A DNA stretch of 46,412 bases from an uncultured Oscillospiraceae bacterium (GTDB lineage Bacteria; Bacillota; Clostridia; Oscillospirales; Oscillospiraceae). Position 1 is the stretch's first letter. Every line of letters begins with the position of its first letter. The DNA lies in NCBI GenBank assembly GCA_947625045.1, contig CANQMW010000023.1:1-46412 (forward strand). Reading direction: 5' to 3'. The notes under the pieces were generated by a model. It saw nothing but the letters and a program-made list of their open reading frames with translations, did not search any database and had not been told where the DNA came from. Of this stretch, positions 1 to 45,394 are shown piece after piece. Made by a program: the position numbers and the translations under genes.

Positions 1-2153
1 ACGGTGAAAACGGCGGCCTCGCCGTCACGGACGCGGACAGCCTCACGGTGAACGGCGGCGACATCTCCGGCGGTTCCGCCGGCATCGCCTGTACGGGCGA
101 TAACAGACCTACTATCAACGGCGGCAGCATCAGCGGCAAGGGCGGGGGCGGTATGGACATGAGCATCGGGGTCATGGCCTATAGCGGCCTGGTGCTCACC
201 GGCGGCGAGATCAGCGGCGGCGACGCCGGCGTCATGAGCATTGGCGATACGACGGTCACGGGCGGCAGCGTCACCGGTACGGAGGGCTTCGGCCTGCTGA
301 TAGGGGAGGATGGCTCCGCGTCTCTGTCCGGCGGCGCCTATGCCGGCGTGAGCGGCGCCGTGAGCTGCGGCGGCATCGAGATTCTCGGCTACCCGATAGA
401 GTCGGCCCTGACGGTGAATGACCTGCTGGCCTACGGCTATGGCTGGTACGGCGCCGACGGCGCGCTTCTGACGCCGGCGGCGGATGAGAAGACCCTGGCC
501 GGTCCCGTGACGGTAGGCCCCCTGCCCGTGGCCCCGGTGACGCCGGTGATGAAGGTGACGGGGGAGAATGTGCTTCTTTCCTCCAACCCCCTGGATATCG
601 ACCAGGAATATGACGCGCCCCTTACAGACGGAGCGCTGATAGAGGGCGGCATCGGTTACATCATGGTGCCGATAGAGTATTCGGTGCAGTTCCCCGACGC
701 GGGCGTGGTGACCGAGGAGTACTACCGGCACGACATCAGCTTTGGGCCGGACACGCCTGTCTATCACGTATATGACATCAAGATCACCGACCCCGCTATG
801 ACGGAGCTTACCGTGACCGTGTCCCACAACAACCCGGACGCGCCCACGCCGACGAAGGTCATCTTCCATACATATGCTGACTTCTACTGGAGTCTTACCG
901 ACAGCGCGGACAGCTGCTACTATGGAGAAGCTGCCGAGGACGAGTGGACATTTTACGTGGCGGAGGACGCGGGCGGCGTCACCATTGACCTGAGCGAGGC
1001 GGAGGGCGTGGAGCCCCTAATGAAGACCGGCACGGCTACGGACCTGGGCGGCGGCAAGTACACTCTTCACGGCGAGAACGGCGTGCTGGAGTTCACCCTG
1101 GTGTCCAACAGCATCAAAGTCAACGTCACCGGCGAGACGGACGGGCTCATCAAGGCATCCGAGTACGTGATGGATCGGAACGGCGAAAACTATTTCCGCG
1201 TCTATGTAAAGATAGGCTACACCGTGGTGCCGGTAGATGAGAACACCGCTGTGACGATGGGCTATCTCGATGAGGACGACGACGGGTCGGACTGCCTCCA
1301 CTACCACTTGAACGCGGACGCGGCGGCGGCCAACGGAGTGGACAGCGTGACGGTGCGAATCGAAAAACTCACCTCCGCCACCCTCTCGGTCAACGAGCCG
1401 GACGCCCTGCTGGCGGCGGACCCCTACGGCAGCGACAGAGGCCCCATTCTCACCGACGGAGACGTCATCCCGCCGGAGGGCGGGTGGCTGCTCACCAAAT
1501 CGGACTGGTGGTTCAGCGGCGACAACGATGAGTACGCCTATGACTGGCGGGCCGCGGCCTATGGAGAGCCCGGCAGCGAGATATATAAATGGACGTATGT
1601 CTATCCTCTCAAGGACGGCGCGGTGAATATCACCCTGGAACCCTCTGATGCGCCGGCCCACTGGGCGGAGGTGACCATTGATAATCCCGGTCACAGGGAG
1701 CTGTCCATAAGCGCCTATGCCGGCGACCAGGCGGCGCAGTTCAATTCCGATACGTATAGTGCGTCGATGATCGTGTCGAACTATATGTTTATTAGAGACA
1801 CGGCGGGCTCGCTGCGCAAGGCGGCGGACATCACCGACGTGGCGGGCGTCGAGAGCGTAGAGGAACACTCCTACTATCTCGAGTTGATCCTGGACCCGAC
1901 GGCGGAGAAGGTGTCCTTCACCGTGAAGGCCCCGGAGGGCACGGCCACACCCACGCCGGGACCCACGGCCACGCCGACACCCACGGCGGCCCCGACCGCG
2001 ACGGCGGCCCCGGCTGCTGCGGCCACGGCGGCTCCCGGCGCGACGAGCCCCAAGACCGGAGATGAGACGGCATTGGCGCCCTGGGCGCTGATGCTGCTGG
2101 GCTGCGGCGCGGCCCTCATAGCGGTGACCCTGCGGCGGCGGGCGAGAAGATGA
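1..2153 (+). CDS. Wall-anchored repeat surface protein (5' end missing)
   Basis: The frame is open from base 3, so the true start lies upstream; about 716 residues are visible. The first ~120 residues are short Gly-rich repeats of the GGxISGG / VTGGSVTG kind, typical of right-handed beta-helix surface proteins. Longer beta-rich regions follow, then a Thr/Pro/Ala linker (ATPTPGPTATPTPTAAP), an SPKTGDE sorting signal, a hydrophobic helix (WALMLLGCGAALIAVTL) and the basic tail RRRARR. This layout indicates sortase-mediated anchoring to peptidoglycan, with SPKTG replacing the usual LPxTG. The ligand and function are unknown. It ends 32 bases before the Sel1 gene start at 2186, so the two may be co-transcribed. 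Anchoring is well supported; an adhesin role is only inferred. Confidence 0.8.
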   Translation, partial: GENGGLAVTDADSLTVNGGDISGGSAGIACTGDNRPTINGGSISGKGGGGMDMSIGVMAYSGLVLTGGEISGGDAGVMSIGDTTVTGGSVTGTEGFGLLIGEDGSASLSGGAYAGVSGAVSCGGIEILGYPIESALTVNDLLAYGYGWYGADGALLTPAADEKTLAGPVTVGPLPVAPVTPVMKVTGENVLLSSNPLDIDQEYDAPLTDGALIEGGIGYIMVPIEYSVQFPDAGVVTEEYYRHDISFGPDTPVYHVYDIKITDPAMTELTVTVSHNNPDAPTPTKVIFHTYADFYWSLTDSADSCYYGEAAEDEWTFYVAEDAGGVTIDLSEAEGVEPLMKTGTATDLGGGKYTLHGENGVLEFTLVSNSIKVNVTGETDGLIKASEYVMDRNGENYFRVYVKIGYTVVPVDENTAVTMGYLDEDDDGSDCLHYHLNADAAAANGVDSVTVRIEKLTSATLSVNEPDALLAADPYGSDRGPILTDGDVIPPEGGWLLTKSDWWFSGDNDEYAYDWRAAAYGEPGSEIYKWTYVYPLKDGAVNITLEPSDAPAHWAEVTIDNPGHRELSISAYAGDQAAQFNSDTYSASMIVSNYMFIRDTAGSLRKAADITDVAGVESVEEHSYYLELILDPTAEKVSFTVKAPEGTATPTPGPTATPTPTAAPTATAAPAAAATAAPGATSPKTGDETALAPWALMLLGCGAALIAVTLRRRARR

Positions 2154-2185
2154 CGGAACGGATGAAAAGGAAAGGAGAACAGACG

Positions 2186-5089
2186 ATGAGCATCAAGAAG
2201 ATATTGGCATTCATCCTGGCGGCGGCCATGGTATTGGGCCTGAGCCCCGCGGCACTGGCGTCGGAGGACCCCGCCGGGCTCTATGAGCAGGGGCGGGACG
2301 CCTTTGACGCGGGCGACATGGAAGGCGCGCTGGAGCTCTTTCAGGCCGCGGCGGAGGCCGGCGAAGTCAAGGCCGACGGTATGCTGGCGTACATGTATCT
2401 CACAGGCGAGGGCACAGAGGCGGACCCGGAGCTGGCCTTTCAGTGGGCCAGCCAGGGCGCGGAGCAGGGCGACGTCTACGCCCAGGGGCTGCTGGGGAAT
2501 ATGTATATCACCGGCGAGGGCGTCGAGAAAAACCCGGAGCTTGCCCGGCAGTGGTTTGAAAAGGCCGCGGCCCAGGACGATATCACGTCCGTGCTGAACC
2601 TGGGTCAGATGTACGAGTTGGGTGAAGGTGTGGAGCAGGACAGCGCCAAGGCGACGGAGCTCTATCAGAGGGGGGCTGATCTGGGGAACTATTACGGCCT
2701 TTACAGGCTCGCCGATATGTACCGGGAGGGCACCGGTTTGGAACAGGACTATGATGAGGCCATGCGCCTTTATCAGCTTGTGATGGACGAGTCGCCTCAG
2801 GATGAGTACCGGGCCTGGGCGGCGTTGGAGCTGGGCTATATGGTCGGAAATGGCGTGGGCGTGGAGAAAGATGTGGACAGGGCCGTGGAGCTCTATGAGA
2901 TCGCGGCGGACCTGGGCGAGGCAACCGCCATCAATAACCTGGCCGTGATGTACTTCCGCGGCACGGGCGTGGAGCAGGACTGGGCCAAAACGCTGGAGCT
3001 GAGCCGGCAGGCGGCGGAGGCCGGAAATCCCGGCGGAATGGAGTTCGTGGGCGAATTCTATGAAGAGGGCTACGGCGTGGTGGACGTGGACTATGCCCAG
3101 GCGGCGGAATGGTACCAGAAAGCCGTGGACGAGGGCAATGTCGAGGCCATGTACCGGCTGGGCAAGCTCTATGACAATGGCCAGGGCGTGGAAAAGGATG
3201 AGGTCAAAGCGGAGGAACTGTACGGTCAGGCCTTTGATATCCTCTCGGCTGACGACGAGCTTGCGGACGCCACGACCCAGCGCCTTTTGGGCGGGATGTA
3301 TCTTGTAGGCCGGGGCACGGAGCCGGACTATGACAAGGCCCTGGAGCTTTTGACCCGGGCCACTGACAACGGGGACATGCTGGCGCCGAGCGATCTGGGG
3401 TATATGTACTATTCCGGCGAGGGTGTGGAGCAGGATTACGCCAAAGCGCTGGAGTGGTTCACCCTGGGGGCGGAGCGGCAGGATTCCTACGCCATGGTGA
3501 ACCTGGGGTATATGTACTATAATGGCGAGGGTGTGGATCAGGACTACGCCAAAGCGGCGGAGTGCTACGAGGCCGCGGCGGCGCTGAGCAGCGCCCTCGC
3601 GGGGGAGCATCTCTCCGAGATGTATTATTACGGCGAAGGCGTGGAGCAGGACGACGCCAAGGCTCTCCAGTGGTCGGAGAAGGCCGCGGCAGGCGCGGGC
3701 GACAACGAGATACGGGGTGTGGCCGCCTTTAACACCGGCTTGTTCTATGACGACGGCATCGGCACGGAGGAGGATAACGCCAAGGCCGTGGAGTATTATA
3801 CCCGTGCGATGGACCTGGGCAACGCCGGCGCCGCGTACAACCTGGGTATGATGTATAATAACGGCGACGGTGTGGAGCAGGACTACGACAAGGCCGTGGA
3901 GTATTACACCCAGGCGGTGGACCTGGGCGAAGCCAGCGCGATGGTGAATCTGGGTTATATGTACAGCCAAGGCGAGGGCGTGGAACAGGACTATGAAAAA
4001 GCCTTTGAGCTCTACAGCCAAGCGGCGGAGCTGGGCAGCAGCATGGCCCAAAATAACCTGGGCGATCTGTACGAGAACGGCTACGGCGTGGAGCAGGACT
4101 ATGACAAGGCTGTTGAGCTCTATACCCAAGCCGCGGACGCGGGCAATAGCAGGGCCATGATAAACCTGGGCTATATGTACCGCGACGGCGAGGGCGTGGA
4201 GCAGGACTATGATAAGGCCGTGGCGTATTACACCAAGGCGATAGACCTGGGCAGCGCCAGCGCCATGGTGAGCCTGGGCTATATGTACAGCCATGGCGAG
4301 GGCGTGGAGAAGGATAAGGAAAAGGCCTTTGAACTCTACAGCCAGGCGGCGGAGCTGGGCAACGGGCTGGCGATGGCTAACCTGGCGGAGTTCTACCTGT
4401 ACGGCAAGGGCGTGGAGCGGGACGCCGCCAAGGCCCTGGAGCTGGCCCGGCAGGCCGCGGACGCGGGCGAATCCAACGGCATGTGGCTGTTAGGCAAACT
4501 CTATGACGAGGGCTACGGCGCGGTGGATATCGATGACGCCAAGGCCGTGGAGTGGTACGAAAAGGCCCTGGAGGCGGACGATGAAAACGTCGAAGCCATG
4601 GTATGGCTGGCCTCCATGTACGCCGATGGCGATGGCGTGGAGCAGGACGACGCCAAGGCCCAGGAGCTCTATGCCCAGGCCGCCGCTCTGCTGCAGGAGT
4701 GGGAAGAGGAGGACGATCTTTCTGCCAGCGAGCAGTACGCGCTGGGCATGATGTATCTCTATGGCGACGGCGTGGAAGAGGATGACGCCAAGGCCGTGGA
4801 GCTTTTGACCGCCGCGGCGGAGGACGACGACCCGGACGCCCTGTTCGCTTTGGGCGGCTGCTATATCCTCGGCAAGGGCGTGGAGCAGGACTATAACAAG
4901 GCTGTGGAATATTTGACCGCCGCGGCCGGATGGAGCGATCCCTTTGCCACCTTCACGCTGGGGACCTTGTACCTGAGCGGCCAGGGTGTGGAGCAGGACG
5001 AGGCGAAGGGCCGGGAGCTGCTTGAAAAGGCGGCTGTGCTGGGCGTCGAGGATGCCGTCCAGCTGCTGGAGCAGTTCAACGAAGAGTAA
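2186..5089 (+). CDS. Large secreted Sel1-repeat protein
   Basis: The protein has 967 residues. I place the start at 2186 because AAAGGAGAA precedes it and the product then begins MSIKKILAFILAAAMVLG...ALA-SE, a signal peptide with an AxA cleavage site. Almost all the rest is Sel1-like helical repeats of about 36 residues, with cores such as GVEQDYAKA...YYTQAADLG and AMxNLGYMYxxGEG, roughly 25 copies. The proteins are very acidic. Sel1/TPR-like solenoids bind other proteins; no catalytic domain is visible. It is followed 18 bases later by a second, longer Sel1 protein with a near-identical signal region, so the pair probably arose by duplication and acts outside the membrane. The partner is unknown, though the tandem small-peptide genes downstream are suggestive. 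Confidence 0.9.
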   Translation: MSIKKILAFILAAAMVLGLSPAALASEDPAGLYEQGRDAFDAGDMEGALELFQAAAEAGEVKADGMLAYMYLTGEGTEADPELAFQWASQGAEQGDVYAQGLLGNMYITGEGVEKNPELARQWFEKAAAQDDITSVLNLGQMYELGEGVEQDSAKATELYQRGADLGNYYGLYRLADMYREGTGLEQDYDEAMRLYQLVMDESPQDEYRAWAALELGYMVGNGVGVEKDVDRAVELYEIAADLGEATAINNLAVMYFRGTGVEQDWAKTLELSRQAAEAGNPGGMEFVGEFYEEGYGVVDVDYAQAAEWYQKAVDEGNVEAMYRLGKLYDNGQGVEKDEVKAEELYGQAFDILSADDELADATTQRLLGGMYLVGRGTEPDYDKALELLTRATDNGDMLAPSDLGYMYYSGEGVEQDYAKALEWFTLGAERQDSYAMVNLGYMYYNGEGVDQDYAKAAECYEAAAALSSALAGEHLSEMYYYGEGVEQDDAKALQWSEKAAAGAGDNEIRGVAAFNTGLFYDDGIGTEEDNAKAVEYYTRAMDLGNAGAAYNLGMMYNNGDGVEQDYDKAVEYYTQAVDLGEASAMVNLGYMYSQGEGVEQDYEKAFELYSQAAELGSSMAQNNLGDLYENGYGVEQDYDKAVELYTQAADAGNSRAMINLGYMYRDGEGVEQDYDKAVAYYTKAIDLGSASAMVSLGYMYSHGEGVEKDKEKAFELYSQAAELGNGLAMANLAEFYLYGKGVERDAAKALELARQAADAGESNGMWLLGKLYDEGYGAVDIDDAKAVEWYEKALEADDENVEAMVWLASMYADGDGVEQDDAKAQELYAQAAALLQEWEEEDDLSASEQYALGMMYLYGDGVEEDDAKAVELLTAAAEDDDPDALFALGGCYILGKGVEQDYNKAVEYLTAAAGWSDPFATFTLGTLYLSGQGVEQDEAKGRELLEKAAVLGVEDAVQLLEQFNEE

Positions 5090-5107: not shown

Positions 5108-8100
5108 ATGAAGCTTCGGAAGGTATTGGCGTTTATTTTGGCGGCGGCTATGCTGCTGGGCCTGTGCGCGGGCTGCGGAAAAAAGCCCGAGGAGATGTAC
5201 GACGAGGCCATGGAGGCCATAGCGGGCGGCGACGCCGCCAAGGGCGAGGAGCTGCTTGAAAAGGCGGCGGAGAAGGACTATGCCCCCGCCAGCGCTGCGC
5301 TGGGCGACATGTACGCCAGCGGCGACGGCGTGGAGGAGGACCTGGCCAAGGCCGCGGAGATGTACCAGAAGGCTGCGGACGGCGGCGACGGCGAAAGCAT
5401 GCTCCGCTTGGGCGCGATGTACGCCATGGGCAAAGGCGTGGAGCAGGACGAGACCAGGGCCTTTGAGCTGTTCACCGCGGCGGCGGAGCTGACCCCCGAC
5501 GCCTACGGCAACCTGGGCGTTGCCTACTTCAACGGCGAGGGCACGGAGCAGGACTATGCCAAGGCCGCGGAGTGCTGGACCAAAGGCGTGGAGGAATGCG
5601 CCGAGGGGCAGTTCAAGACCCAGTGCGCCCAGAACCTGGCGGAGTCCTATTTCTTCGGCCGGGGCACGGAGCAGAGCTTTGAGAAGTCTCTTGAACTGTT
5701 CACGCAGGCCGGGTCGGCCGGCTCCGCCTACGCTCAGCAGTTCGTGGGCCGGTTTTATGACTTTGGCTACGGCGTAGTGGACATAGACCATGCTCAGGCG
5801 GCGGAGTGGTACCGGAAGGCCGCGGACCAGGGCGACGCGGGCGGCATGATCTTCCTGGGCGACCTTTACGCCAGCGGTTTGGGCGTGGAGCAGGACGAGG
5901 CAAAAGCCGATGAACTCTACAGCCAGGCGCTGGAGGCCCTAACGGAGGAAGGCGAGGACACCCAGTATTACAACGGCTATTTCCTCCTGGGGTATATTTA
6001 TAAGTACGGCCTGGGCGTGGAGGAAGACGCCGACAAGGCCCTGGAGTACTTCACTTCCTCTGCGGAGATCGGCGACCCGGACGGCATGTACGACCTGGCC
6101 CGGTGCTATTACGAAGCGGGCGAGTACGACAAGGCCCTGGAGCTTATGAACCAGTGCGCGGACATGAACATGCCCGAGGCCATGGTGTCGCTGGGCGCCA
6201 TGTACTACTACGGCTATGGCGTGGAGCAGGACTATCCCAAGGCCCTGGAGCTGTTTGACGCGGCCGAGGCCCTGGATGAGCCTAACGTCTGCCTCTTTCT
6301 GGCTGACATGTATATGTACGGCTACGGCGTGGAGAAGGACTATGCCAAGGCGCGGGCGTATTATGAGCAGGCCATGACCCTCACCGGGCTGGACGACAAC
6401 ATCCTGGGTTACGCTTTGGAGAACGACGGCTGGTTCTACGACTACGGCATGGGCGTGGAGATGGACAAGGAAAAGGCCTTTGAGCTTTACACCCAGTCCG
6501 CGGAGTTGGGCTATAAGGACGGCCAGACCTCTCTGGGCCGGTACTATGACTACGGCTACGGCGTGGTGGACGTGGACTATCTGAAGGCCGCGGAGTGGTA
6601 CCAGAAGGCCGCGGACCAGGGCGACGCCGAGGCCATGGTGTATCTGGGCTGGCTCTATGAGCAGGGCCAGGGCGTGGAGATGGATAAGGACAAGGCCGCG
6701 GAGCTCTTTGCCCAGGCATTTGAGACCGCCTCGGAGGACGAAGACTACAGCTACAACGCGCTGGTGCTGGGCTATCTCTACGAAAACGGCGAGGGCGTGG
6801 AGCAGGACGATGAAAAGGCCCTGGGATACTTCAACGCCGCGGCGGAGGACGATATCTTTGAGGCGGAGTGCCACGCGGGCATGATGTACATCCTGGGTTA
6901 TGGCACGGAAAAGGATGAGGCCAAGGGCCTGGAGATGCTGGAGGACGCGGCGGCGCACGGCGTGCCGGAGGCCTACGGCTACATGGCTCGGGTCTACCGG
7001 ACCGGCGCCGGCGTGGAGCAGGACCTGGCCAAGGCCAGGGAGCTCTACGAGCAGGGCGCGGCCATGGACGACATGTGGTCCATGACGGCCCTTGGTGACA
7101 TGTATAACAACGCCGAGGGCGTGGATATGGACAAGGCCAAGGCCTTTGAATACTACAGCCAGGCCGCGGAGGACGGCGACGCCGACGCCATGTACGCGGT
7201 GGGCGATTTCTATGCCAACGGCCACGGCGTGGTGGATGTGGACCTGGATCAGGCGGCGGCGTGGTATGAAAAGGCCGCCGAACAGGACCAGCCGGAGGCC
7301 ATGTATTACCTGGCAAAGCTCTATGAAGACGGCAAGGGCGTGGAGAAGGACGAGGCCAAGGCGGCGGAGCTTCGCGAGAGCCTGGCCGCTATGCTCACCG
7401 CTGTGGACGAAAGCGGGCTGGACGCCTCTGAAAAGTGGGTCCTGGGCAAGCTCTATGAGCACGGCTACGGCGTGGAGGAGGACTATGGCCGGGCGGCGGA
7501 GCTGTTTGAGAAGGCCGCGGCCCAGGGCTATACCGGCGCTCTGAGCGCTCTGGGCTATATGTATGCCAACGGCGAAGGCGTGGAGCAGGACTACGCCAAG
7601 GCCATTGAGCTTTACACCCAGGCCGCGGAGAAGGGCGAAGAAATGGCCATCAACAACCTGGGCTCTATGTACGATCGCGGCCAGGGCGTAGAGCAAGACT
7701 ATGCCAAGGCTGTGGAGTATTACGCTCGGGCGGCGGAGCTGGGCCTCGTCGGCGCGATGTTCAACCTGGGCGTGATGTACGAGTATGGCGAGGGCGTGGA
7801 ACAGGACTACGCCAAGGCTGCGGAGTACTATGCCCAGGCGGCGGAACAGGGCAACACGAATGCCATGGTGAACCTGGGCAATCTTTACGACAACGGCCAG
7901 GGCGTGGAACAGGACTACGCCAAGGCCTTTGAGCTCTTCAGCCAGGCGGCGGAACAGGGCGTCCCTGAGGCCATGTACAACCTGGGCTCGATGTACTATT
8001 ACGGCGAGGGCGTGGAACAGGACTACGCTAAGGCCTTTGAGTTCTACAGCCAGGTGGCGGAACAGGGCGTCCCCGAGGCCATGTACAACCTGGGCTATAT

Positions 8101-10051
8101 GTACAAGCATGGCCAGGGCGTGGAGCCTGACATGACCAAGGCCCTGGACTATTACGAGAAGGCGGCGGACCTGGGCAGCACCAACGCCATGAACATTGTG
8201 GCCGACGCCTATAACTACGCCGACGGCAGGGAGCTGGACAAGGCAAAGGCCTTTGAGCTCTACAGCCAGGCCGCGGATGCAGGCGACGCCGACGCCATGT
8301 ACATGGTGGGCGACTTCTACGAAAACGGCTACGGCGCGGTGGACGCAGACCCGGCCCAGGCGGCCCAGTGGTATGAAAAGGCCGCCGAACAGGACCAGCC
8401 GGAGGCCATCTATGCCCTGGCAAGGCTCTATAAGAGCGGCAAGGGCGTGGAAAAGGACGGGGCCAAGGCCCAGGAGCTTCGGGAGAGCCTGGCCGCCCAG
8501 CTCACGGAAAAGGCGGAAGAGGACCTCACCGCCGCCGAGACGCGGATACTGGCTCATCTTTATTACTATGGCTACGGCGTGGAGGAAGACTACGAAACGG
8601 CCTTTGCGCTCTACACTGCCGCCGTGGAGGACGGCTGCTGGCGGGCGGCGGAGGACGTGGGCGACATGTATTACTTCGGCGAGGGCGTGGAACAAGACTA
8701 CGAAAAGGCCGCGGACTATACGCGCCGGGCGGCGGAGCACGGCATCCCCAGCGCCATGTACAACATGGGCGTACTGTATAAAAACGGCGAGGGCGTGGAG
8801 CAGGACTATACCAAGGCTGTGGAGTATTACACCCGGGCGGCGGAGCTGGGGAACGCCTCCGCCGCATATAACCTGGGCTTGGCGTATTCCCGCGGCCAGG
8901 GCGTGGAACAGGACTATGGCAAGTCCATGGAGTACTACAGCCAGGCCGCGGAACTGGGCCACAGCATGGCCGTCAACAACATGGGCGTGATGTACGGCCG
9001 CGGCGAGGGCGTGGAAAAAGACTACGGCAAGGCCGCGGAGCTCTTCGCCCAGGCCGTGGAGATGGGCAACAGCCTGGCCGCGTCGAACCTGGCCAATTTC
9101 TATTACTACGGCAAGGGCGTGGAGGTGGACCTGGACAAGAGCTTTGAGCTCTGCAACAAGGCGCTGGAGCTGGACGAGGATAACACCTCGGCCATGGAGG
9201 CCCTGGGGGAGTTCTATCTGTTCGGAAAGGGCTCTGTTGAGGTGGACTACGCCCAGGCGGCGGAGTGGTTTGAAAAGGCCGCTCAGGACGATGACGAGGA
9301 GGCCACCTACTACCTGGCGGTCATGTACGCCAACGGCGAGGGCGTGGAGCAGGACGAGGCGAAGGCTCAGGAGCTCTACGAGAGCTTGGCCGCAAGCCTT
9401 ACCCAGGAGGAGGAAGAGGACGGCCTGGGCTCCAGCGAAAAGCGCATCCTGGCCTATCTCTACCGGGACGGCAAGGGCCTGGAACAGGACGAGGCCAAAG
9501 CTGTGGAGCTTCTGACCTCCGCCGTGGAAGAGGACGAAAACTACCAAGCGGCCTACTCCCTGGGCAACTGCTATCTGGACGGCCAGGGCGTGGACCAGGA
9601 CAGCGCCAAAGCGGCGGAGCTCCTTTCGCTGGCCGCGGTCCACGGCGAGACCGGCGCCGCCGGCAAGCTGGGGTACATATACCTCAACGGTGTGGGCGTG
9701 GACCAGAACTATGAGGAAGCGCTCCGGTGGCTGCAGCTGGGCGTGGATATGGGCGACCCCTACTGCCAGATGCTCCTGGGAGGTATGTATGTCGCTGGCA
9801 TCGGCGTGGAACAGGACGGCGAAAAGGGCGTCGCCCTGCTGGAGGAGTCTCTGGACGGGCAGACCGCGGGCTGGTATATCCTGGGTGTGGCCTATGAGGA
9901 CGGCGAGGGCGTGGAGCCGGATATGGATAAGGCCCTGGAGTACTACGCCAAGGGCGCGGAGGCCGGGGACGAATCGTGCGCTCAGCGTCTGGAGGACCTG
10001 GCGGCGGAAGCGGAAGCGCCCGCCGCCAGCGAGCCCCCTGCCGGGGACTGA
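5108..10051 (+). CDS. Giant Sel1-repeat lipoprotein
   Basis: The protein has 1,647 residues. It starts at an ATG preceded by GGGGAGGT. The N-terminus MKLRKVLAFILAAAMLLGLCAGC carries a lipobox (LCAGC) with the lipidated Cys at residue 23, so it should be tethered to the outer face of the membrane. The remainder is about 40 Sel1 repeats (GVEQDYAKA..., GDADAMYxVGDFYxNGYG). Several higher-order blocks recur, for example GYGVVDVDYxxAAEWYxKAA near residues 220, 485 and 710. The C-terminus is a short Ala/Glu/Pro tail. The length far exceeds ordinary Sel1 proteins (usually a few hundred residues). No enzymatic domain is visible. It is probably an extracytoplasmic scaffold; its gene lies 78 bases upstream of the peptide array. 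Confidence 0.9.
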   Translation: MKLRKVLAFILAAAMLLGLCAGCGKKPEEMYDEAMEAIAGGDAAKGEELLEKAAEKDYAPASAALGDMYASGDGVEEDLAKAAEMYQKAADGGDGESMLRLGAMYAMGKGVEQDETRAFELFTAAAELTPDAYGNLGVAYFNGEGTEQDYAKAAECWTKGVEECAEGQFKTQCAQNLAESYFFGRGTEQSFEKSLELFTQAGSAGSAYAQQFVGRFYDFGYGVVDIDHAQAAEWYRKAADQGDAGGMIFLGDLYASGLGVEQDEAKADELYSQALEALTEEGEDTQYYNGYFLLGYIYKYGLGVEEDADKALEYFTSSAEIGDPDGMYDLARCYYEAGEYDKALELMNQCADMNMPEAMVSLGAMYYYGYGVEQDYPKALELFDAAEALDEPNVCLFLADMYMYGYGVEKDYAKARAYYEQAMTLTGLDDNILGYALENDGWFYDYGMGVEMDKEKAFELYTQSAELGYKDGQTSLGRYYDYGYGVVDVDYLKAAEWYQKAADQGDAEAMVYLGWLYEQGQGVEMDKDKAAELFAQAFETASEDEDYSYNALVLGYLYENGEGVEQDDEKALGYFNAAAEDDIFEAECHAGMMYILGYGTEKDEAKGLEMLEDAAAHGVPEAYGYMARVYRTGAGVEQDLAKARELYEQGAAMDDMWSMTALGDMYNNAEGVDMDKAKAFEYYSQAAEDGDADAMYAVGDFYANGHGVVDVDLDQAAAWYEKAAEQDQPEAMYYLAKLYEDGKGVEKDEAKAAELRESLAAMLTAVDESGLDASEKWVLGKLYEHGYGVEEDYGRAAELFEKAAAQGYTGALSALGYMYANGEGVEQDYAKAIELYTQAAEKGEEMAINNLGSMYDRGQGVEQDYAKAVEYYARAAELGLVGAMFNLGVMYEYGEGVEQDYAKAAEYYAQAAEQGNTNAMVNLGNLYDNGQGVEQDYAKAFELFSQAAEQGVPEAMYNLGSMYYYGEGVEQDYAKAFEFYSQVAEQGVPEAMYNLGYMYKHGQGVEPDMTKALDYYEKAADLGSTNAMNIVADAYNYADGRELDKAKAFELYSQAADAGDADAMYMVGDFYENGYGAVDADPAQAAQWYEKAAEQDQPEAIYALARLYKSGKGVEKDGAKAQELRESLAAQLTEKAEEDLTAAETRILAHLYYYGYGVEEDYETAFALYTAAVEDGCWRAAEDVGDMYYFGEGVEQDYEKAADYTRRAAEHGIPSAMYNMGVLYKNGEGVEQDYTKAVEYYTRAAELGNASAAYNLGLAYSRGQGVEQDYGKSMEYYSQAAELGHSMAVNNMGVMYGRGEGVEKDYGKAAELFAQAVEMGNSLAASNLANFYYYGKGVEVDLDKSFELCNKALELDEDNTSAMEALGEFYLFGKGSVEVDYAQAAEWFEKAAQDDDEEATYYLAVMYANGEGVEQDEAKAQELYESLAASLTQEEEEDGLGSSEKRILAYLYRDGKGLEQDEAKAVELLTSAVEEDENYQAAYSLGNCYLDGQGVDQDSAKAAELLSLAAVHGETGAAGKLGYIYLNGVGVDQNYEEALRWLQLGVDMGDPYCQMLLGGMYVAGIGVEQDGEKGVALLEESLDGQTAGWYILGVAYEDGEGVEPDMDKALEYYAKGAEAGDESCAQRLEDLAAEAEAPAASEPPAGD

Positions 10052-10129
10052 AAAAATCTTTCGGGGCCGCTGGCCCTTTGGGCTTTCTGAAACGTATAAA
10101 GAGACAGAGAACGGAAAAGGAGAACGACT

Positions 10130-10339
10130 ATGGGCGATAACGAGAACAAGAGAGCCTCCGGGGCGCTGCCCGACGAGGCGCTGGAAAATGTCGCCGGAGG
10201 GAAAATCTCTCAGGATTTTTTTAAAGAGAGATATTGCCAGGGCTGCTGCCATGTTGATGTTGACTGTCCCTACGGCACTCAGATGGATGCCGTGATAGCA
10301 ATGGGCGGTGCTTCGCAGTGCCCAAGCAAGGAGGCTTGA
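10130..10339 (+). CDS. Double-glycine leader Cys-rich peptide 1
   Basis: This 69-residue peptide has SD AAGGAGAAC 4 bases before the ATG. The leader MGDNENKRASGALPDEALENVAGG ends in Gly-Gly, the classic cleavage point of C39-type bacteriocin exporters. The core after GG contains CQGCCHVDVDCPYG and ends QCPSKEA, a pattern C-x2-C-C-H-x4-C-P...C-P-S-K shared with the next three genes. Such leaders are typical of ribosomally made natural products and bacteriocins; this core family I do not recognise. Its stop is 3 bases before the next start, so the genes form an operon. It could be a toxin, a signal, or a metal-binding peptide. Confidence 0.8.
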   Translation: MGDNENKRASGALPDEALENVAGGKISQDFFKERYCQGCCHVDVDCPYGTQMDAVIAMGGASQCPSKEA

Positions 10340-10347
10340 CCTATGAA
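10322..10347 (+). repeat. 26-bp direct repeat, copy 1
   Basis: The 26 bases are identical to 10786-10811. The unit covers the last codons of one peptide gene (Pro-Ser-Lys-Glu-Ala-stop), the AAGGAGG ribosome binding site and the start codon of the next gene. It shows that the array grew by duplication of gene-plus-junction units. Confidence 0.9.
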
Positions 10348-10552
10348 CGATAACAATGAGAACAAAAAGGGTAACGAAGCGCTGCCCGATGAGGCCCTGG
10401 ACGCGGTGGCGGGCGGCGGGTTTAAAGAAGATCGGATCAAATTTTTAGAGGAGAATTGCTGGTGCTGTTGTCACTTTATGAATGACTGTCACTGCAATAT
10501 GTTTGAGCACGTGAAGAACTACGGTTTTACGCCCTGCCCCGACAAGGCGTAA
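10343..10552 (+). CDS. Double-glycine leader Cys-rich peptide 2
   Basis: This peptide has 69 residues. Its ribosome binding site, AAGGAGG, lies inside the 3' end of the previous gene, which implies translational coupling. The leader is MNDNNENKKGNEALPDEALDAVAGG. The core has NCWCCCHFMNDCHCNMFEH and ends TPCPDKA. It is the most Cys/His-rich member, with six Cys and three His in the core, and keeps the C-x2-C-x-H-x3-D-C and C-P-x-K signature. No modification enzyme is nearby, so the mature form is unknown; disulfides, thioethers or bound metal are all possible. Confidence 0.8.
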   Translation: MNDNNENKKGNEALPDEALDAVAGGGFKEDRIKFLEENCWCCCHFMNDCHCNMFEHVKNYGFTPCPDKA

Positions 10553-10572
10553 GAATAGAAGGGAGAACGACT

Positions 10573-10803
10573 GTGAACGATAACAAAACAAAACTGGTAC
10601 CCCCCGAAGGCCTGGCCGACGACGCCTTGGACAAGGTGACCGGCGGTGATGAGAGAACCACAAGTGGCATCTCAATTTGGATAGCAGACAATTGCTATTC
10701 CTGCCGCCACTATGAAAATATAACTGACTGTCCCTACAAAAATCCGTTGGTGGCCATGGCGAGATTTGGCGATGAGGCACCGTGTCCAAGCAAGGAGGCT
10801 TGA
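10573..10803 (+). CDS. Double-glycine leader Cys-rich peptide 3
   Basis: This 76-residue peptide uses a GTG start 7 bases after GGGAGAAC. The leader MNDNKTKLVPPEGLADDALDKVTGG has VTGG in place of VAGG. The core includes NCYSCRHYENITDCPYKN and ends PCPSKEA. The 3' end and the junction to the next gene duplicate those of peptide 1 exactly over 26 bases. The leader's LVPPE segment recurs in the frameshifted gene at 11593. Function is unknown; membership of the array family is clear from the leader and the Cys spacing. Confidence 0.8.
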   Translation: MNDNKTKLVPPEGLADDALDKVTGGDERTTSGISIWIADNCYSCRHYENITDCPYKNPLVAMARFGDEAPCPSKEA

Positions 10804-10811
10804 CCTATGAA
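10786..10811 (+). repeat. 26-bp direct repeat, copy 2
   Basis: This is the second copy of the unit at 10322-10347, again spanning CPSKEA-stop, the ribosome binding site and the next ATG. The copies are 464 bases apart, about the length of a two-gene unit. Confidence 0.9.
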
Positions 10812-11025
10812 TAACAACGAGAACAAAACGAGCAACGAAGCGCTGGCCGACGAGGAGATGGACGGGGTCGCTGGGGGGTACGGCGGGAGCGAGTTTAAAA
10901 AGAACAATTGCGAATCCTGCGGTCACTTCTACGCAGATGACTGTCCCCAAGGCGGTTCTTTTCATTACTTACTTAACGCGACCACCGAGACCAGTATGAC
11001 GTGCCCCAGTAAGACCGCCCTGTGA
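10807..11025 (+). CDS. Double-glycine leader Cys-rich peptide 4
   Basis: This peptide has 72 residues and is translated from the duplicated AAGGAGG junction. The leader is MNNNENKTSNEALADEEMDGVAGG. The core has NCESCGHFYADDCPQGG and ends MTCPSKTAL. With peptides 1-3 it defines the core consensus C-x2-(C/G/R)-H-x(4,5)-D-C-x ... C-P-(S/D)-K. The middle of the core is variable, while Cys, His and the CPxK tail are kept, which is the pattern expected of paralogous secreted peptides with a common fold. Confidence 0.8.
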   Translation: MNNNENKTSNEALADEEMDGVAGGYGGSEFKKNNCESCGHFYADDCPQGGSFHYLLNATTETSMTCPSKTAL

Positions 11026-11046
11026 GTGGCGGGACCGGACAAAGGG

Positions 11047-11074
11047 GAAACGACGCTTAAATACGTTTCAAATA
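11047..11074 (+). repeat. Imperfect palindromic repeat GAAACG...CGTTTCAAATA, copy 1
   Basis: GAAACGACGC is followed by a short spacer and CGTTTCAAATA, forming a 6-bp inverted repeat. A near-identical element lies at 12431-12457. It sits just upstream of the Nif11-like gene, after the first four peptide genes, and may be a regulatory hairpin or a recombination footprint. Confidence 0.6.
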
Positions 11075-11101
11075 AAAAACATAAAAGAGGAGGGGCATCC
11101 A

Positions 11102-11362
11102 ATGAACGAGGAAATGATCGCGAAACTAAAAGAGGTAAAGTCCGCGGAGGACGTCATCGCCATCGCGAAGGAGTATGGCAAGGAGATGACCCTGGAGCAG
11201 GCCCAGGCGCTTTGTGATAAGCTGAAAGCGTCTGCAAATGGCGAACTGACCGACGACGAGCTGGCCGGCGTCGCCGGCGGCGGGATGGACTGGGGTTATG
11301 TAGACGAACAGATCAAAAAATATGGCCCGGACGTCGTGAAAGCTTTGGCATCGCTCATGTAA
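11102..11362 (+). CDS. Nif11-like leader peptide
   Basis: This 86-residue product has a strong ribosome binding site (GAGGAGGGG). Residues 1-60 match the Nif11-like leader type: a helical segment (MIAKLKEVKSAEDVIAIAKE, then MTLEQAQALCDKL) followed by GELTDDELAGVAGGG. The predicted core after GG is MDWGYVDEQIKKYGPDVVKA with no Cys, unlike its neighbours. Nif11 leaders are found on precursors of lanthipeptides and other ribosomal natural products and are usually recognised by dedicated enzymes and exporters. None is visible here. It shares the D-E-L-x-x-VAGG ending with the flanking short leaders. Confidence 0.85.
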   Translation: MNEEMIAKLKEVKSAEDVIAIAKEYGKEMTLEQAQALCDKLKASANGELTDDELAGVAGGGMDWGYVDEQIKKYGPDVVKALASLM

Positions 11363-11388
11363 TGTGGGACGGGAACAGGAGGAACGAC

Positions 11389-11580
11389 ATGGATAACAAT
11401 GAAAACAAGAAGGCTCCCGAGGCGCTGGCGGACGAGTCCCTGGGCGCGGTGGCGGGAGGCCTTGTAATTGACATTGATTTGAATTGTGTTAGCTGCGGCG
11501 TCGTGTCGAAATCATCTGAATTTAAGCAGAATGACGGCTGCTGCCCCAAATGCGGGACTCCTTGGAAAGGGATGTGGTAA
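11389..11580 (+). CDS. Double-glycine leader peptide with zinc-ribbon-like core
   Basis: This 63-residue peptide starts at 11389, 7 bases after AGGAGG. The leader MDNNENKKAPEALADESLGAVAGG matches peptides 1-4. The core has C-x2-C (CVSCG) and later CPKCG, a spacing typical of treble-clef or rubredoxin-like zinc knuckles. That suggests the family's conserved Cys may bind metal rather than form thioethers. Function is unknown; I infer export by the same route as its neighbours. Confidence 0.8.
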   Translation: MDNNENKKAPEALADESLGAVAGGLVIDIDLNCVSCGVVSKSSEFKQNDGCCPKCGTPWKGMW

Positions 11581-11592
11581 AGGAGAAATATC

Positions 11593-11806
11593 ATGAATAA
11601 CAACGAACACAAACGAACACAAACTTGTACCCCCCGAAGAGCTGGCGGACGAGGCCCTGGACGCCGTCGCCGGGGGCTCTGGGTTCGCAGAGCTGTTTAT
11701 GTGTCATGGATGCCATGATCCTAATAAAGAGGTCCGTATCTATTCCTCCCCCACTGGAGATTCCCTTTATTGCGATGCCTGCGCCAGGGATCGGGGGCTG
11801 CTCTGA
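11593..11806 (+). pseudogene. Frameshifted double-glycine leader peptide gene
   Basis: An ATG at 11593 follows AAAGGAGAA at 11579-11587. The first codons read MNNNEHK, then the frame is lost. From 11624 another frame gives LVPPEELADEALDAVAGG, a perfect family leader, then a core with MCHGCHD and CDACARD before TGA at 11804. The break is a tandem duplication of GAACACAAAC (11605-11614 and 11615-11624); removing one copy restores the leader. The core has two C-x2-C pairs, again zinc-ribbon-like. It is either a recent inactivating slip, a phase-variable switch, or a sequencing artefact. Confidence 0.75.
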
Positions 11807-11865: not shown

Positions 11866-12432
11866 ATGAGCGGTGAGCGGGACATCCTCCTGGTGAACGA
11901 CCGGGACGAGATCGTGGGCTATGGCGAAAAAATGGAGGTCCACCGGAAGGGACTGCTGCACCGGGCGTTCTCCATCTTTATCTACGATAAGCAAACAGGC
12001 CGCATGCTCCTGCAGCGGCGGGCCCTGGGAAAATACCACTCCGGGGGCCTCTGGGCCAACGCCTGCTGCTCCCATCCCCGGAAGGGCATGACCATGGAGG
12101 CGTGTCTGAACCAGCGGCTGGGGGAGGAGCTGGGTCTGCGTGTAAGCCTTCCCATCGCTGCTGAGGCCGGGGAGGGGTTCCGTCCCTGTGGCAGCTTCCT
12201 CTATGAGATGCGCCAGGGGGACGTGGGCGAGCATGAGATAGACCACGTGTTCCTATACTGCCCGGCGGAGGCGGTGGACGCGGACGCCCTGGCCTTCGAC
12301 CGGTCGGAGATCGCCGAGCTCCGGTGGGTGACCATGGCGGAACTGTACGTCTGGATGACCCGGCGGCCGGAGGACTTCGCTGCCTGGTTCCCCCCGGCGC
12401 TCAAATTGGCCGAGCAATATATAAATCAGTGA
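11866..12432 (+). CDS. idi: Isopentenyl-diphosphate delta-isomerase, type I
   Basis: This 188-residue enzyme interconverts isopentenyl and dimethylallyl diphosphate for isoprenoid synthesis. I chose the ATG at 11866 because the product then begins MSGERDILLVNDRDEIVG as in the family, preceded by AAAAGGGG. The Nudix-like type I fold is shown by the HRAFSIFIYD strand, WANACCSHP (catalytic Cys region, compare NSVCGHP), the ACLNQRLGEELGL Nudix helix, and GEHEIDHVF, which supplies the second catalytic acid. Length is normal. It stands alone after the peptide array; its 3' end overlaps the repeat at 12431. Confidence 0.93.
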   Translation: MSGERDILLVNDRDEIVGYGEKMEVHRKGLLHRAFSIFIYDKQTGRMLLQRRALGKYHSGGLWANACCSHPRKGMTMEACLNQRLGEELGLRVSLPIAAEAGEGFRPCGSFLYEMRQGDVGEHEIDHVFLYCPAEAVDADALAFDRSEIAELRWVTMAELYVWMTRRPEDFAAWFPPALKLAEQYINQ

Positions 12433-12868: not shown

Positions 12869-14389
12869 ATGGATACGAGATTGAATGCGATCTATGCCAG
12901 GCAGTCCGTCGATCGATTGGACAGCATCTCAATCGAGAGTCAGATCGAGTTTTGCCAGTACGAGCTGAGAGGGGAGGCCTATAAGGAGTATTCTGACAGG
13001 GGTTTTTCGGGAAAGAATACCAGCAGACCGCAGTTTCAGAGCATGCTGGAAGATATCCGCAGCGGCTTAATCAAAAGAGTGGTATGCTATCGCCTGGACC
13101 GAATCTCCCGCTCGGTTTTGGACTTTGCCAATATGATCGATGAGTTCCAGCGGTATCATGTGGAATTCGTTTCATGCAGCGAGAAATTCGACACTTCCAC
13201 GCCGATGGGACGCGCTATGCTGAATATCTGCATCGTCTTCGCCCAGCTGGAGCGCGAGACGATACAACAGCGTGTGGCAGACGCCTATCATTCCCGTTCT
13301 CTCAAGGGCTACTACATGGGCGGCCGCATACCCTATGGCTACCACCTGGAGGAGTACTCTATCGACGGGAAGAGGACATCCCGCTATGCAGTCAACGAGA
13401 GCGAGGCCGATGTCATACGGCTCATGTATGAACTATACGCCAAGCCGCAGACATCCATCGGTGACATTATTCGCTATCTGGATGAACACGGCATCGAAAA
13501 TCCAAACGCAGACGACAAACACTGGAACAAATCAAGAGTTGGAAGGATCCTGAAAAATCCGGTGTATGTAAGAGCAGATCTTGATATCTATGATTTTTTT
13601 GCCCATCAGGGAGCAGATATCCACAACGAGCCTGGAGATTTCATAGGTACGAACGGATGCTACCTATACAGCGACGAAAAGGGTGGCCGGAAGGAGACTT
13701 GCCTGGAGCATCACCATATCGTTCTCGCGCCGCATGAAGGGATCGTTCCGGCCGATATTTGGATACGGGCCCGGAAAAAAGGGCTCAATAACAAGCAAGT
13801 GGCAAGACCGCTTAAAGCAAAAAATTCCTGGCTTTGCGGCAACATCAAATGCGGTAAATGCGGCTATGCACTGACGGTGAAGAGATCCAAAACCAGGATC
13901 GGCAGATACTTCATCTGCAGCAGACATTTGGATTCCTGCGGGTGTGAGGGTATCGGAGGACTGGATGCAACGGCGATAGAAGACCTTGTTTTGGAGGCGA
14001 TAGAGGATCACCTCCAAGACTTTAAGGTCCTTCACTGTCCGCAGAGGCCGCAGGCCGATGCAAGGTTGCCCGAGATAGACGTTGAGATAGCCCAAGTAGA
14101 AAGAGATATAACTAGCCTCATGGACAAAGTGCCGGAGGCAGGCCAGACGTTGATGCGGCATATCAACGAGAAGATCAGTGCCCTGGACAAAAGGCTGGGT
14201 GAGCTGATCTCCGCCAAAAAGGCTTTGCTCGACGCCGAGCTGTCCCGCACGGCCACTGTGGATGAGATCACAGATTATATGAGCCATTGGGACGAGTTGA
14301 CCGTCTCCGACAAAAAAACGGTCGTCGATGCACTCATCGTGTCGATCCGTGCGACAAGGGAGAAGGTCAGGATCGAATGGCGCATATAG
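12869..14389 (+). CDS. Large serine recombinase
   Basis: This 506-residue site-specific integrase has ribosome binding site AAGGAGAGG. The N-terminal resolvase domain holds the catalytic Ser13 in YARQSVDRLDSIS, SIESQIEFC, and the YRLDRISRS arginine motif. The recombinase domain follows (RIPYGYHLEE, near residues 150-290). A zinc-ribbon region (C-x2-C near CGNIKCGKCGY, then CSRHLDSCGC) and a C-terminal coiled coil end the protein. These enzymes integrate and excise elements without ligase or host factors. The coding end overlaps the candidate right attachment core. Confidence 0.95.
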   Translation: MDTRLNAIYARQSVDRLDSISIESQIEFCQYELRGEAYKEYSDRGFSGKNTSRPQFQSMLEDIRSGLIKRVVCYRLDRISRSVLDFANMIDEFQRYHVEFVSCSEKFDTSTPMGRAMLNICIVFAQLERETIQQRVADAYHSRSLKGYYMGGRIPYGYHLEEYSIDGKRTSRYAVNESEADVIRLMYELYAKPQTSIGDIIRYLDEHGIENPNADDKHWNKSRVGRILKNPVYVRADLDIYDFFAHQGADIHNEPGDFIGTNGCYLYSDEKGGRKETCLEHHHIVLAPHEGIVPADIWIRARKKGLNNKQVARPLKAKNSWLCGNIKCGKCGYALTVKRSKTRIGRYFICSRHLDSCGCEGIGGLDATAIEDLVLEAIEDHLQDFKVLHCPQRPQADARLPEIDVEIAQVERDITSLMDKVPEAGQTLMRHINEKISALDKRLGELISAKKALLDAELSRTATVDEITDYMSHWDELTVSDKKTVVDALIVSIRATREKVRIEWRI

Positions 14390-45345: not shown

Positions 45346-45394
45346 ATCTCGCCTCCAGAAATAAGCGGCCATTCATCAATATAATTGTACGGCC

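Follow-up and report, generated by a model that had tools for sequence, protein, structure and literature searches.

The DNA stretch studied here, 46,412 nucleotides (nt) of contig CANQMW010000023.1 from an uncultured Oscillospiraceae bacterium (assembly GCA_947625045.1) and referred to below as the window, carries at 10130-11580 an array of five intact genes for small cysteine-rich peptides with double-glycine (GG) leaders (P0001-P0004 and P0006) and one gene of the Nif11 type (P0005). These genes belong to a family dispersed over the whole genome, which we read, with fair confidence, as a lineage-specific and co-regulated set of secreted microproteins built on cysteine scaffolds. Such peptides would leave the cell through the export system encoded on contig C34, meet Sel1-repeat proteins as partners at the surface and be expressed from a shared promoter. 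The family and its leader, the exporter, the conserved cysteines, a shared upstream element and the linkage to Sel1 genes are directly visible in the sequence.

The peptide family and its core types

P-numbers refer to genes at window positions, C-numbers to contigs of this genome, G-numbers to genomes and L-numbers to fetched loci. The five intact GG-leader genes of the window share a leader of 24-25 residues with the form EALxDExLxxVxGG, from which P0003 and P0004 deviate slightly, followed by cores with 4-7 cysteines each. A previous sequence-only reading of the window had described a tandem family of six genes with this leader and a further one with a Nif11-like leader. The array is real and five of the six are intact, but the sixth (11593-11806) is frame-broken. 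The Nif11 assignment of P0005 was borne out by Pfam (27.0 bits, cut-off 23.8), and the Nif11-type leader model TIGR03798 reached 30.2 bits with this gene, just below its cut-off of 32.3, and gave no match with P0001-P0004 or P0006. The array comprises:

10130-10339, + strand: P0001, GG leader and type-A four-cysteine core (open reading frame (ORF) and translation)
10343-10552, + strand: P0002, GG leader and type-A core (ORF and translation)
10573-10803, + strand: P0003, GG leader and type-A core, GTG start (ORF and translation)
10807-11025, + strand: P0004, GG leader and type-A core (ORF and translation)
11102-11362, + strand: P0005, Nif11-type leader and short cysteine-free core (Pfam Nif11)
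11389-11580, + strand: P0006, GG leader and zinc-ribbon-like core with two C-x2-C knuckles
11593-11806, + strand: frame-broken GG-leader gene with a CxxC...CxxC core (family profile match at 11615-11791, E 5.9e-10)

Across the genome (2.93 Mb in 73 contigs, 95% complete), 31 intact cysteine-rich GG-leader genes were located at 13 loci on 11 contigs (C2, C3, C10, C12, C13, C23, C32, C34, C46, C53 and C61), and more may exist because the genome is a draft. A pattern search of the window and 14 other stretches of the genome produced a catalogue of 40 GG-leader ORFs, some of them surely chance, of which 27 have at least four core cysteines against 0.28 expected (cysteine background of 1.54%, from 6933 residues of 16 window ORFs). 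The catalogued leaders contain 2 cysteines among 1146 residues. Moreover, C-x2-C occurs in 27 of the 40 cores, compared with a mean of 8.5 and a maximum of 18 in 2000 residue shuffles. Four further cysteine-rich GG peptides lie beyond the catalogue (L038 at 4391-4615, two on C32 and one at 25 kb on C3). Chance or a simple repeat as the origin of the family was ruled out by the 13 loci and by the keeping of cysteines between genomes.

The leaders themselves carry hydrophobic positions of the kind that a C39 protease reads, as judged from their residues. Position -12 is leucine in 26 of 27 own-genome peptides, whereas the fit of positions -4 (Val) and -7 (Leu, Val or Met) in all 27 is partly imposed by the search pattern. 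For the C39 protease LahT150, V-4, L-7 and L-12 are leader residues important for cleavage, according to the accessible part of the report on that enzyme (PMC6363468). In 10 reciprocal-best core pairs from six genomes (core identity at least 42%), leaders had a pooled ratio of non-synonymous to synonymous substitutions (dN/dS) of 0.27 (0.18-0.41) and cores one of 0.86 (0.52-1.54), and 43 of 46 cysteines were kept across such pairs. Leaders that stay constant, cysteines that are fixed and loops that change quickly form, within this small sample, the pattern expected of a diversifying exported family. As fast change between the cysteines is also what families facing changing partners display, the likeliest role of the cores lies outside the cell.

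Frame-broken members of the family occur three times in this genome (window 11593-11806, C45:6103 and C32:4860), suggesting that GG-leader genes turn over by being gained and lost. In the window copy, the frame opened by the ATG at 11593 ends at the stop at 11718 (P0007, 41 residues), and it is a different frame (P0008, 11627-11806) that encodes the GG motif and the CxxC...CxxC core. Inside the leader there are two tandem copies of a 10-base unit, at 11604 and 11614.

Two kinds of core can be distinguished in the window. Type A comprises P0001-P0004 and their relatives, with C36, C39 and C64 invariant and C46 kept in at least 90% of 45 aligned peptides from this genome and close relatives, rows that were partly chosen by their cysteine pattern (mean column identity 24%). 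The motif C-x2-C-x-H...C...C-P-(S/D)-K that had been singled out in the four window cores is indeed found in each of them. With one conserved CxxC and two single conserved cysteines, type A falls outside the definition of a C4 zinc ribbon by two CxxC knuckles. The earlier statement that this core fits no class has held up, since P0001-P0004 stayed below cut-off for every Pfam and NCBIfam family; a profile search of the PDB gave a best E of 1.1, with the top three matches covering the leader.

Type B/C, represented in the window by P0006, follows the pattern C-x(1-2)-C...C-x2-C, four cysteines, in two CxxC-type knuckles, being invariant among 9 peptides of this genome that had been selected by this very pattern. 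Two window cores had been credited with paired C-x2-C motifs; P0006 does have both knuckles, and the second such core is the one in the frame-broken gene. The type-B/C profile gave 281 PDB matches up to E=10, and among the best 60, which were inspected, the first (1.1e-7) was a designed zinc finger and many others were zinc fingers. The AlphaFold model of P0006 (predicted local distance difference test score, pLDDT, of 63, and 71-79 for residues 31-60) reached a best Foldseek E of 0.27, and its top folds were mostly C4 zinc sites as named by the analyst, a suggestive result. Altogether, the metal binding proposed in the sequence-only reading appears plausible for the CxxC...CxxC cores from zinc-finger matches by sequence and by predicted fold, all of them weak.

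A different outcome of the same cysteines is conceivable. As disulfide-bonded bacteriocins, the cores would form two disulfides after export and kill close relatives, their variation would reflect an arms race, and Sel1 or other neighbours would confer immunity. A GG leader with a C39 exporter is classic for bacteriocins, and a core dN/dS near 1 with fixed cysteines, together with many paralogs and broken copies, would fit as well. This alternative is possible, if unlikely: type-B/C cores have knuckles of the zinc-ribbon type, small immunity genes paired with each peptide were not noticed by eye, and bacteriocin families, a match to which had been named as refuting the sequence-only reading, gave nothing over cut-off in Pfam or NCBIfam for the window peptides. 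The SCIFF, XyeA, NHLP and class II bacteriocin models were likewise tried and set aside, none passing its cut-off with these peptides; for the SCIFF precursor model there was no match in an NCBIfam scan to E=1.

Exporter, neighbouring genes and distribution

No exporter lies in the window, as had been noted, and the search for a C39 transporter elsewhere that had been recommended led to contig C34. The genome yielded a single C39 domain, which heads an exporter of the NHLM_micro_ABC1 type on this contig (TIGR03796, 952.9 bits, cut-off 853.3), encoded at 5659-7833 of L002. NHLM_micro_ABC2 comes next (TIGR03797, 751.1 bits, cut-off 709.4), and upstream of the exporter are a HlyD-like stub (43.7 bits, below the cut-off of 156.2) and a STAS-kinase protein. 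GG peptides with the same leader type follow directly downstream, and three of these have zinc-ribbon-like cores. In relatives, GG leaders next to NHLM exporters were found fused to LysM (55.7, 53.0, 49.9 and 46.0 bits, cut-off 20.9) and to CW_7 repeats (102.5 and 104.8 bits, cut-off 25), at the following places:

L086, 11641-12594: LysM or CW_7 behind a GG leader
L085, 10754-11074: LysM or CW_7 behind a GG leader
L087, 12669-12941: LysM or CW_7 behind a GG leader
L168, 14482-14817: LysM or CW_7 behind a GG leader

By analogy, these fusions suggest that the GG leader may be an export tag for outside-acting, wall-binding domains. The initial view of GG leaders as export marks thus gains support from context, namely an NHLM C39 exporter with sibling peptides, the leader residues and the LysM/CW_7 fusions, and export of the GG-leader peptides appears well supported on these genomic grounds.

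The peptides could instead stay in the cytoplasm as zinc-ribbon regulators, with the GG uncut and an N-terminal tail that merely resembles a leader. Known small C4 zinc ribbons among the PDB matches, LysW and Rpo12 for example, act inside the cell. Even so, a cytoplasmic family is very improbable indeed, given that the leader is conserved at C39-recognition positions and constrained more strongly than the core, that peptides lie directly behind the exporter, that LysM and CW_7 cores follow the same leader type, and that exporter and peptides are jointly absent from two genomes of the same genus. These two (G095 and G163) are without an NHLM exporter over cut-off, type-A peptides, the upstream element E1 and a close sigma factor, the last two of which are treated below.

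It is also decidedly improbable that the family consists of precursors of ribosomally synthesised and post-translationally modified peptides (RiPPs), whose cysteines or other residues would be cross-linked, cyclised or methylated before export by enzymes encoded elsewhere in the genome, such as methyltransferase-STAS or radical SAM proteins. NHLM exporters do serve modified peptides in other bacteria, as far as the accessible text of PMC2887384 goes, and methyltransferase-like STAS proteins (a weak match) adjoin arrays on C34, C12 and C3. Cores with zinc-knuckle spacing, however, need no modification, and no RiPP enzyme was found in the scanned window ORFs or next to the exporter on C34, no search for radical SAM or LanM enzymes having been made genome-wide. 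The earlier claim that the window lacks modifying enzymes stands for the ten ORFs scanned with Pfam. The nitrile-hydratase-like leader model TIGR03793 did not match the six intact window peptides (P0008 scored 12.6 bits, cut-off 50.9). The family was not filed as RiPP because no modifying enzyme was seen where looked for and because the type-A genes do not match the RiPP leader models.

Proteins with a methyltransferase-like N-terminus, again a weak match, were seen beside GG arrays at L002 (2177-3580), L035 (799-2034), L038 (3132-4370) and L212 (7333-8586), and both of those scanned (L002 and L212) have a C-terminal STAS domain. As modifying enzymes they were put aside for weak evidence and retained only within the RiPP alternative.

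The closest neighbours of the window array are two Sel1-repeat genes upstream and a NUDIX gene downstream:

5108-10051, + strand: giant Sel1-repeat protein of 1647 residues, 78 nt before the array (Sel1, 938.6 bits, 33 stretches)
2150-5089, + strand: second Sel1-repeat protein (Sel1, 673.1 bits, 24 stretches), N-terminus signal-like by eye
11866-12432, + strand: NUDIX gene, a synteny marker (NUDIX, 59.1 bits)

The N-terminus of the giant protein is lipobox-like, also by eye. Among the best 150 of 313 candidates, Sel1 matches fell in proteins at four loci, each adjoining a GG peptide, and in one further protein of 383 residues at 97 kb on C3. The distance from Sel1 gene to GG-peptide gene is 76-79 nt in the window, C13, C3, G200 and G201, and a single run in G201 contains the exporter, a Sel1 protein and nine GG-leader ORFs. 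The NUDIX gene, which we take to be IPP-isomerase-like, is 77% identical over 188 residues to a G200 gene that comes after the exporter, its peptides and one further gene, so that synteny, too, connects the locus in the window with the exporter. A papain-like (C70/C39-like) peptidase with a signal-like N-terminus was observed at L101 (17891-18694) within a run of GG-peptide and Sel1 genes. Elsewhere in the window there are a large serine recombinase at 43768-45372 on the - strand (Resolvase, Recombinase and zinc-ribbon domains) and a putative second one at 12869-14389 on the + strand, judged from sequence alone; RNA or tRNA features were absent at Rfam gathering scores and by ARAGORN.

Regarding relatives, the closest named NHLM homologs come from rabbit-gut metagenome-assembled genomes of uncultured Oscillospiraceae and Clostridia, mostly at 85-91% identity. 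Of 200 genomes sampled from the taxonomic family, 20, the own genome among them, have NHLM_ABC1 over cut-off, and the type-A profile matched 5, four of them weakly. At E<=0.001 the same profile matched 8 of the 9 genomes behind loci L100-L108, with 52 matches in G200, and many of the weaker matches in these genomes cover the leader alone. The profile search of clostridial genomes that had been advised was run on 391 genomes of the class, where the 45-row profile recovered the own genome at E<=1e-6 but no other; at most the best 15 candidates were scored per genome, so weak type-A relatives could be missed. Among the best 80 of 593 NHLM loci, many of them truncated at contig ends, a GG-leader ORF is present in 56 and at least one paired-cysteine core in 30; such cores make up 82 of the 208 peptides, a figure that includes a glycine-rich C-x-C class (L103, L106). 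Arrays of this separate class, with glycine-rich cores and repeated C-x-C, were seen at L106 (5600-9484), L103 (4512-5355) and L099 (1-2693).

Promoter-like elements, the linked sigma factor and the proposed mechanism

Alignment of the DNA upstream of unlinked arrays revealed an element, E1, composed of GCCCTTTt, about 13 nt and CGTATAAAGAGACAG. The window has a single such site, whose 15-mer starts 37 nt before the ATG of P0001:

10073-10107, + strand: element E1, with GCCCTTT at 10073 and CGTATAAAGAGACAG at 10093-10107

With at most one mismatch, the 15-mer occurs at 14 sites of the genome compared with 3 for the reversed pattern, and at none in two sampled genomes of the same genus. Eleven of the sites precede intact GG-leader genes (7 of them at 36-40 nt), two precede the frame-broken genes on C45 and C32, and the remaining one precedes a hydrophobic protein of 64 residues. 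In G207, E1 stands before the gene of an extracytoplasmic function (ECF) sigma factor upstream of the NHLM operon. The ortholog in the own genome (C12:82803-83249, 62% identity, E 5.1e-60) is well separated from the next own paralogs (29-34% identity, next best E 1.6e-13) and is preceded by an E1-like site three edits off. In G201, E1 precedes a STAS gene, with an apparent remnant of a sigma C-terminus in between, seen by eye.

Of the 80 NHLM loci, 26 contain a homolog of this sigma factor (E<=1e-15). Immediately before the sigma gene, 24 of them carry a conserved small ORF of one family, about 55-65 residues long; L178 has it downstream, and in L141 none was found. These ORFs end in a leader-like LSDEDLExVxAAGE/D stretch; among the 26 small ORFs found, its last residues are AAG(E/D/Q) in 24 and AAGG in two (L121 and L130), and three of these proteins gave no NCBIfam match up to E=1. 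Leader-like ORFs of this sort, mostly without GG, were seen beside the sigma gene at L107, L111, L133, L147, L153 and 21 other NHLM loci, as well as on the own C12 (L310).

A second element, TTGTCGATTCGGGACA (TGTC-N7-GACA, a palindromic operator), lies upstream of a sigmaA-like promoter and precedes GG peptides of the MSEEKK/MSDEKK type. Exact sites occur in the own genome at C46:5880 and C53:4760, and G200 has 12 sites, one of them before a Sel1-like protein of 2020 residues, against none for the reversed control. The idea of E1 as the single promoter of all arrays was dropped.

From these features we infer cleavage, export, metal binding, a pairing of sigma factor and promoter, and an effector role of the family, which may be linked as follows. 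Each peptide would be made with a short GG leader, after which the NHLM-type peptidase-ABC (ATP-binding cassette) exporter of C34 would cut, releasing a core of ~40-60 residues held together by about four conserved cysteines. Cores resembling C4 zinc ribbons would probably bind zinc (or iron), and the P0001-P0004 type would represent a separate four-cysteine scaffold, binding metal or forming disulfides. Outside the cell the cores would be effectors directed at kin, rivals or the niche, either bound to the surface or diffusible, and the giant Sel1 proteins next to the arrays would be their surface partners. Many arrays would be switched on together by the shared promoter, probably read by the ECF sigma factor of the NHLM system. 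A more elaborate regulon, in which one GG exporter, diversified metal-binding microproteins and a dedicated ECF sigma factor are joined by a leader-copy protein as sensor of exporter load, is speculative and on the whole improbable; there, the uncleavable leader copy beside the sigma gene could tie peptide synthesis to export capacity.

Several observations weigh against the secreted, co-regulated family as we read it. The contrast between leader and core dN/dS rests on ten pairs, and the invariance of the type-A cysteines is descriptive and not independent, since the rows were partly picked by cysteine pattern. The second-best PDB match of the type-B/C profile (5.7e-6) is cytochrome c, not a zinc protein, and the Pfam zinc-ribbon matches of these cores are below cut-off and follow cysteine spacing. 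Structure prediction, which the sequence-only reading had called for, hinted at C4 zinc sites for P0006 but from poor models (pLDDT 63), with nothing at Foldseek E<=0.001 for either core; the type-A model was also poor and its one Foldseek match had an E of 5.2. Concerning the promoter, E1 does not serve all arrays because the MSEEKK/MSDEKK leader group uses another one, and G201 has E1 without a close sigma factor, the remnant seen by eye excepted. In the wider set of loci, E1-like sites precede 9 of 104 peptides where the sigma factor is present (2 for the reversed motif), 4 of 106 where it is absent (1 reversed) and 7 of 26 sigma genes (1 reversed), so that the promoter evidence outside the close group is modest.

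Significance and comparison with known systems

Double-glycine leaders are usually taken as marks of bacteriocins or modified peptides, and here a large set of quickly evolving microproteins with cysteine scaffolds carries them, some of its members zinc-finger-like. If export is true, gut Clostridia would secrete proteins of the zinc-finger type by an ABC route, a class overlooked when genomes are searched for Sec signals, and the NHLM operon with its ECF sigma factor and leader-like partner would be a testable regulatory unit recurring in many gut genomes. A survey of the literature, based on titles and abstract openings with few subscription papers, returned nothing on zinc-ribbon peptides with GG leaders, on Sel1 proteins with GG arrays or on ECF sigma factors with NHLM loci.

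Among known small proteins, C4 zinc ribbons and CPxCG zinc-finger microproteins, represented in the PDB matches by LysW, Rpo12 and small archaeal zinc fingers, share the C-x(1-2)-C...C-x2-C knuckles in a core of 35-55 residues; they differ in being intracellular, and the matches to them are weak. The SCIFF peptides, or ranthipeptides, of Clostridia are also small cysteine-rich precursors, with a cysteine spacing other than the one found here. EbfG1-4 of Synechococcus elongatus are several small GG-motif proteins with a C39 peptidase transporter, PteB, which is needed for their efficient secretion; according to the part of the source available, they are redundant and act in biofilm formation, not in killing (PMC4997328). 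Unlike the present family, EbfG consists of four cyanobacterial proteins in other gene surroundings, and zinc goes unmentioned in the text available (PMC4997328).

The lah cluster of Lachnospiraceae C6A11, as described in the accessible part of PMC6363468, resembles the present system in its gut clostridial C39-ABC exporter, its many precursors with one leader type and the leader positions V-4, L-7 and L-12. In contrast, the lah precursors have Nif11-type leaders, and that part of the source does not mention zinc-ribbon-like cores (PMC6363468). A close precedent is given by the NHLP and Nif11-derived precursors (TIGR03793 and TIGR03798) with their NHLM export system (TIGR03794, TIGR03796 and TIGR03797), as set out in the accessible text of Haft et al. 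2010 (PMC2887384), which likewise show a Gly-Gly leader and large sets of paralogs with constant leader and variable core. Moreover, the window array includes a Nif11-type member and the genome has the same exporter family over cut-off. Most leaders here, however, are 18-26 residues long and below cut-off for both leader models, the cores are four-cysteine or zinc-ribbon-like with no modifying enzyme seen alongside, and a linked ECF sigma factor, a shared promoter-like element and Sel1 neighbours accompany them. With these likenesses and differences, the family is a new variant within the NHLM/GG-leader peptides.

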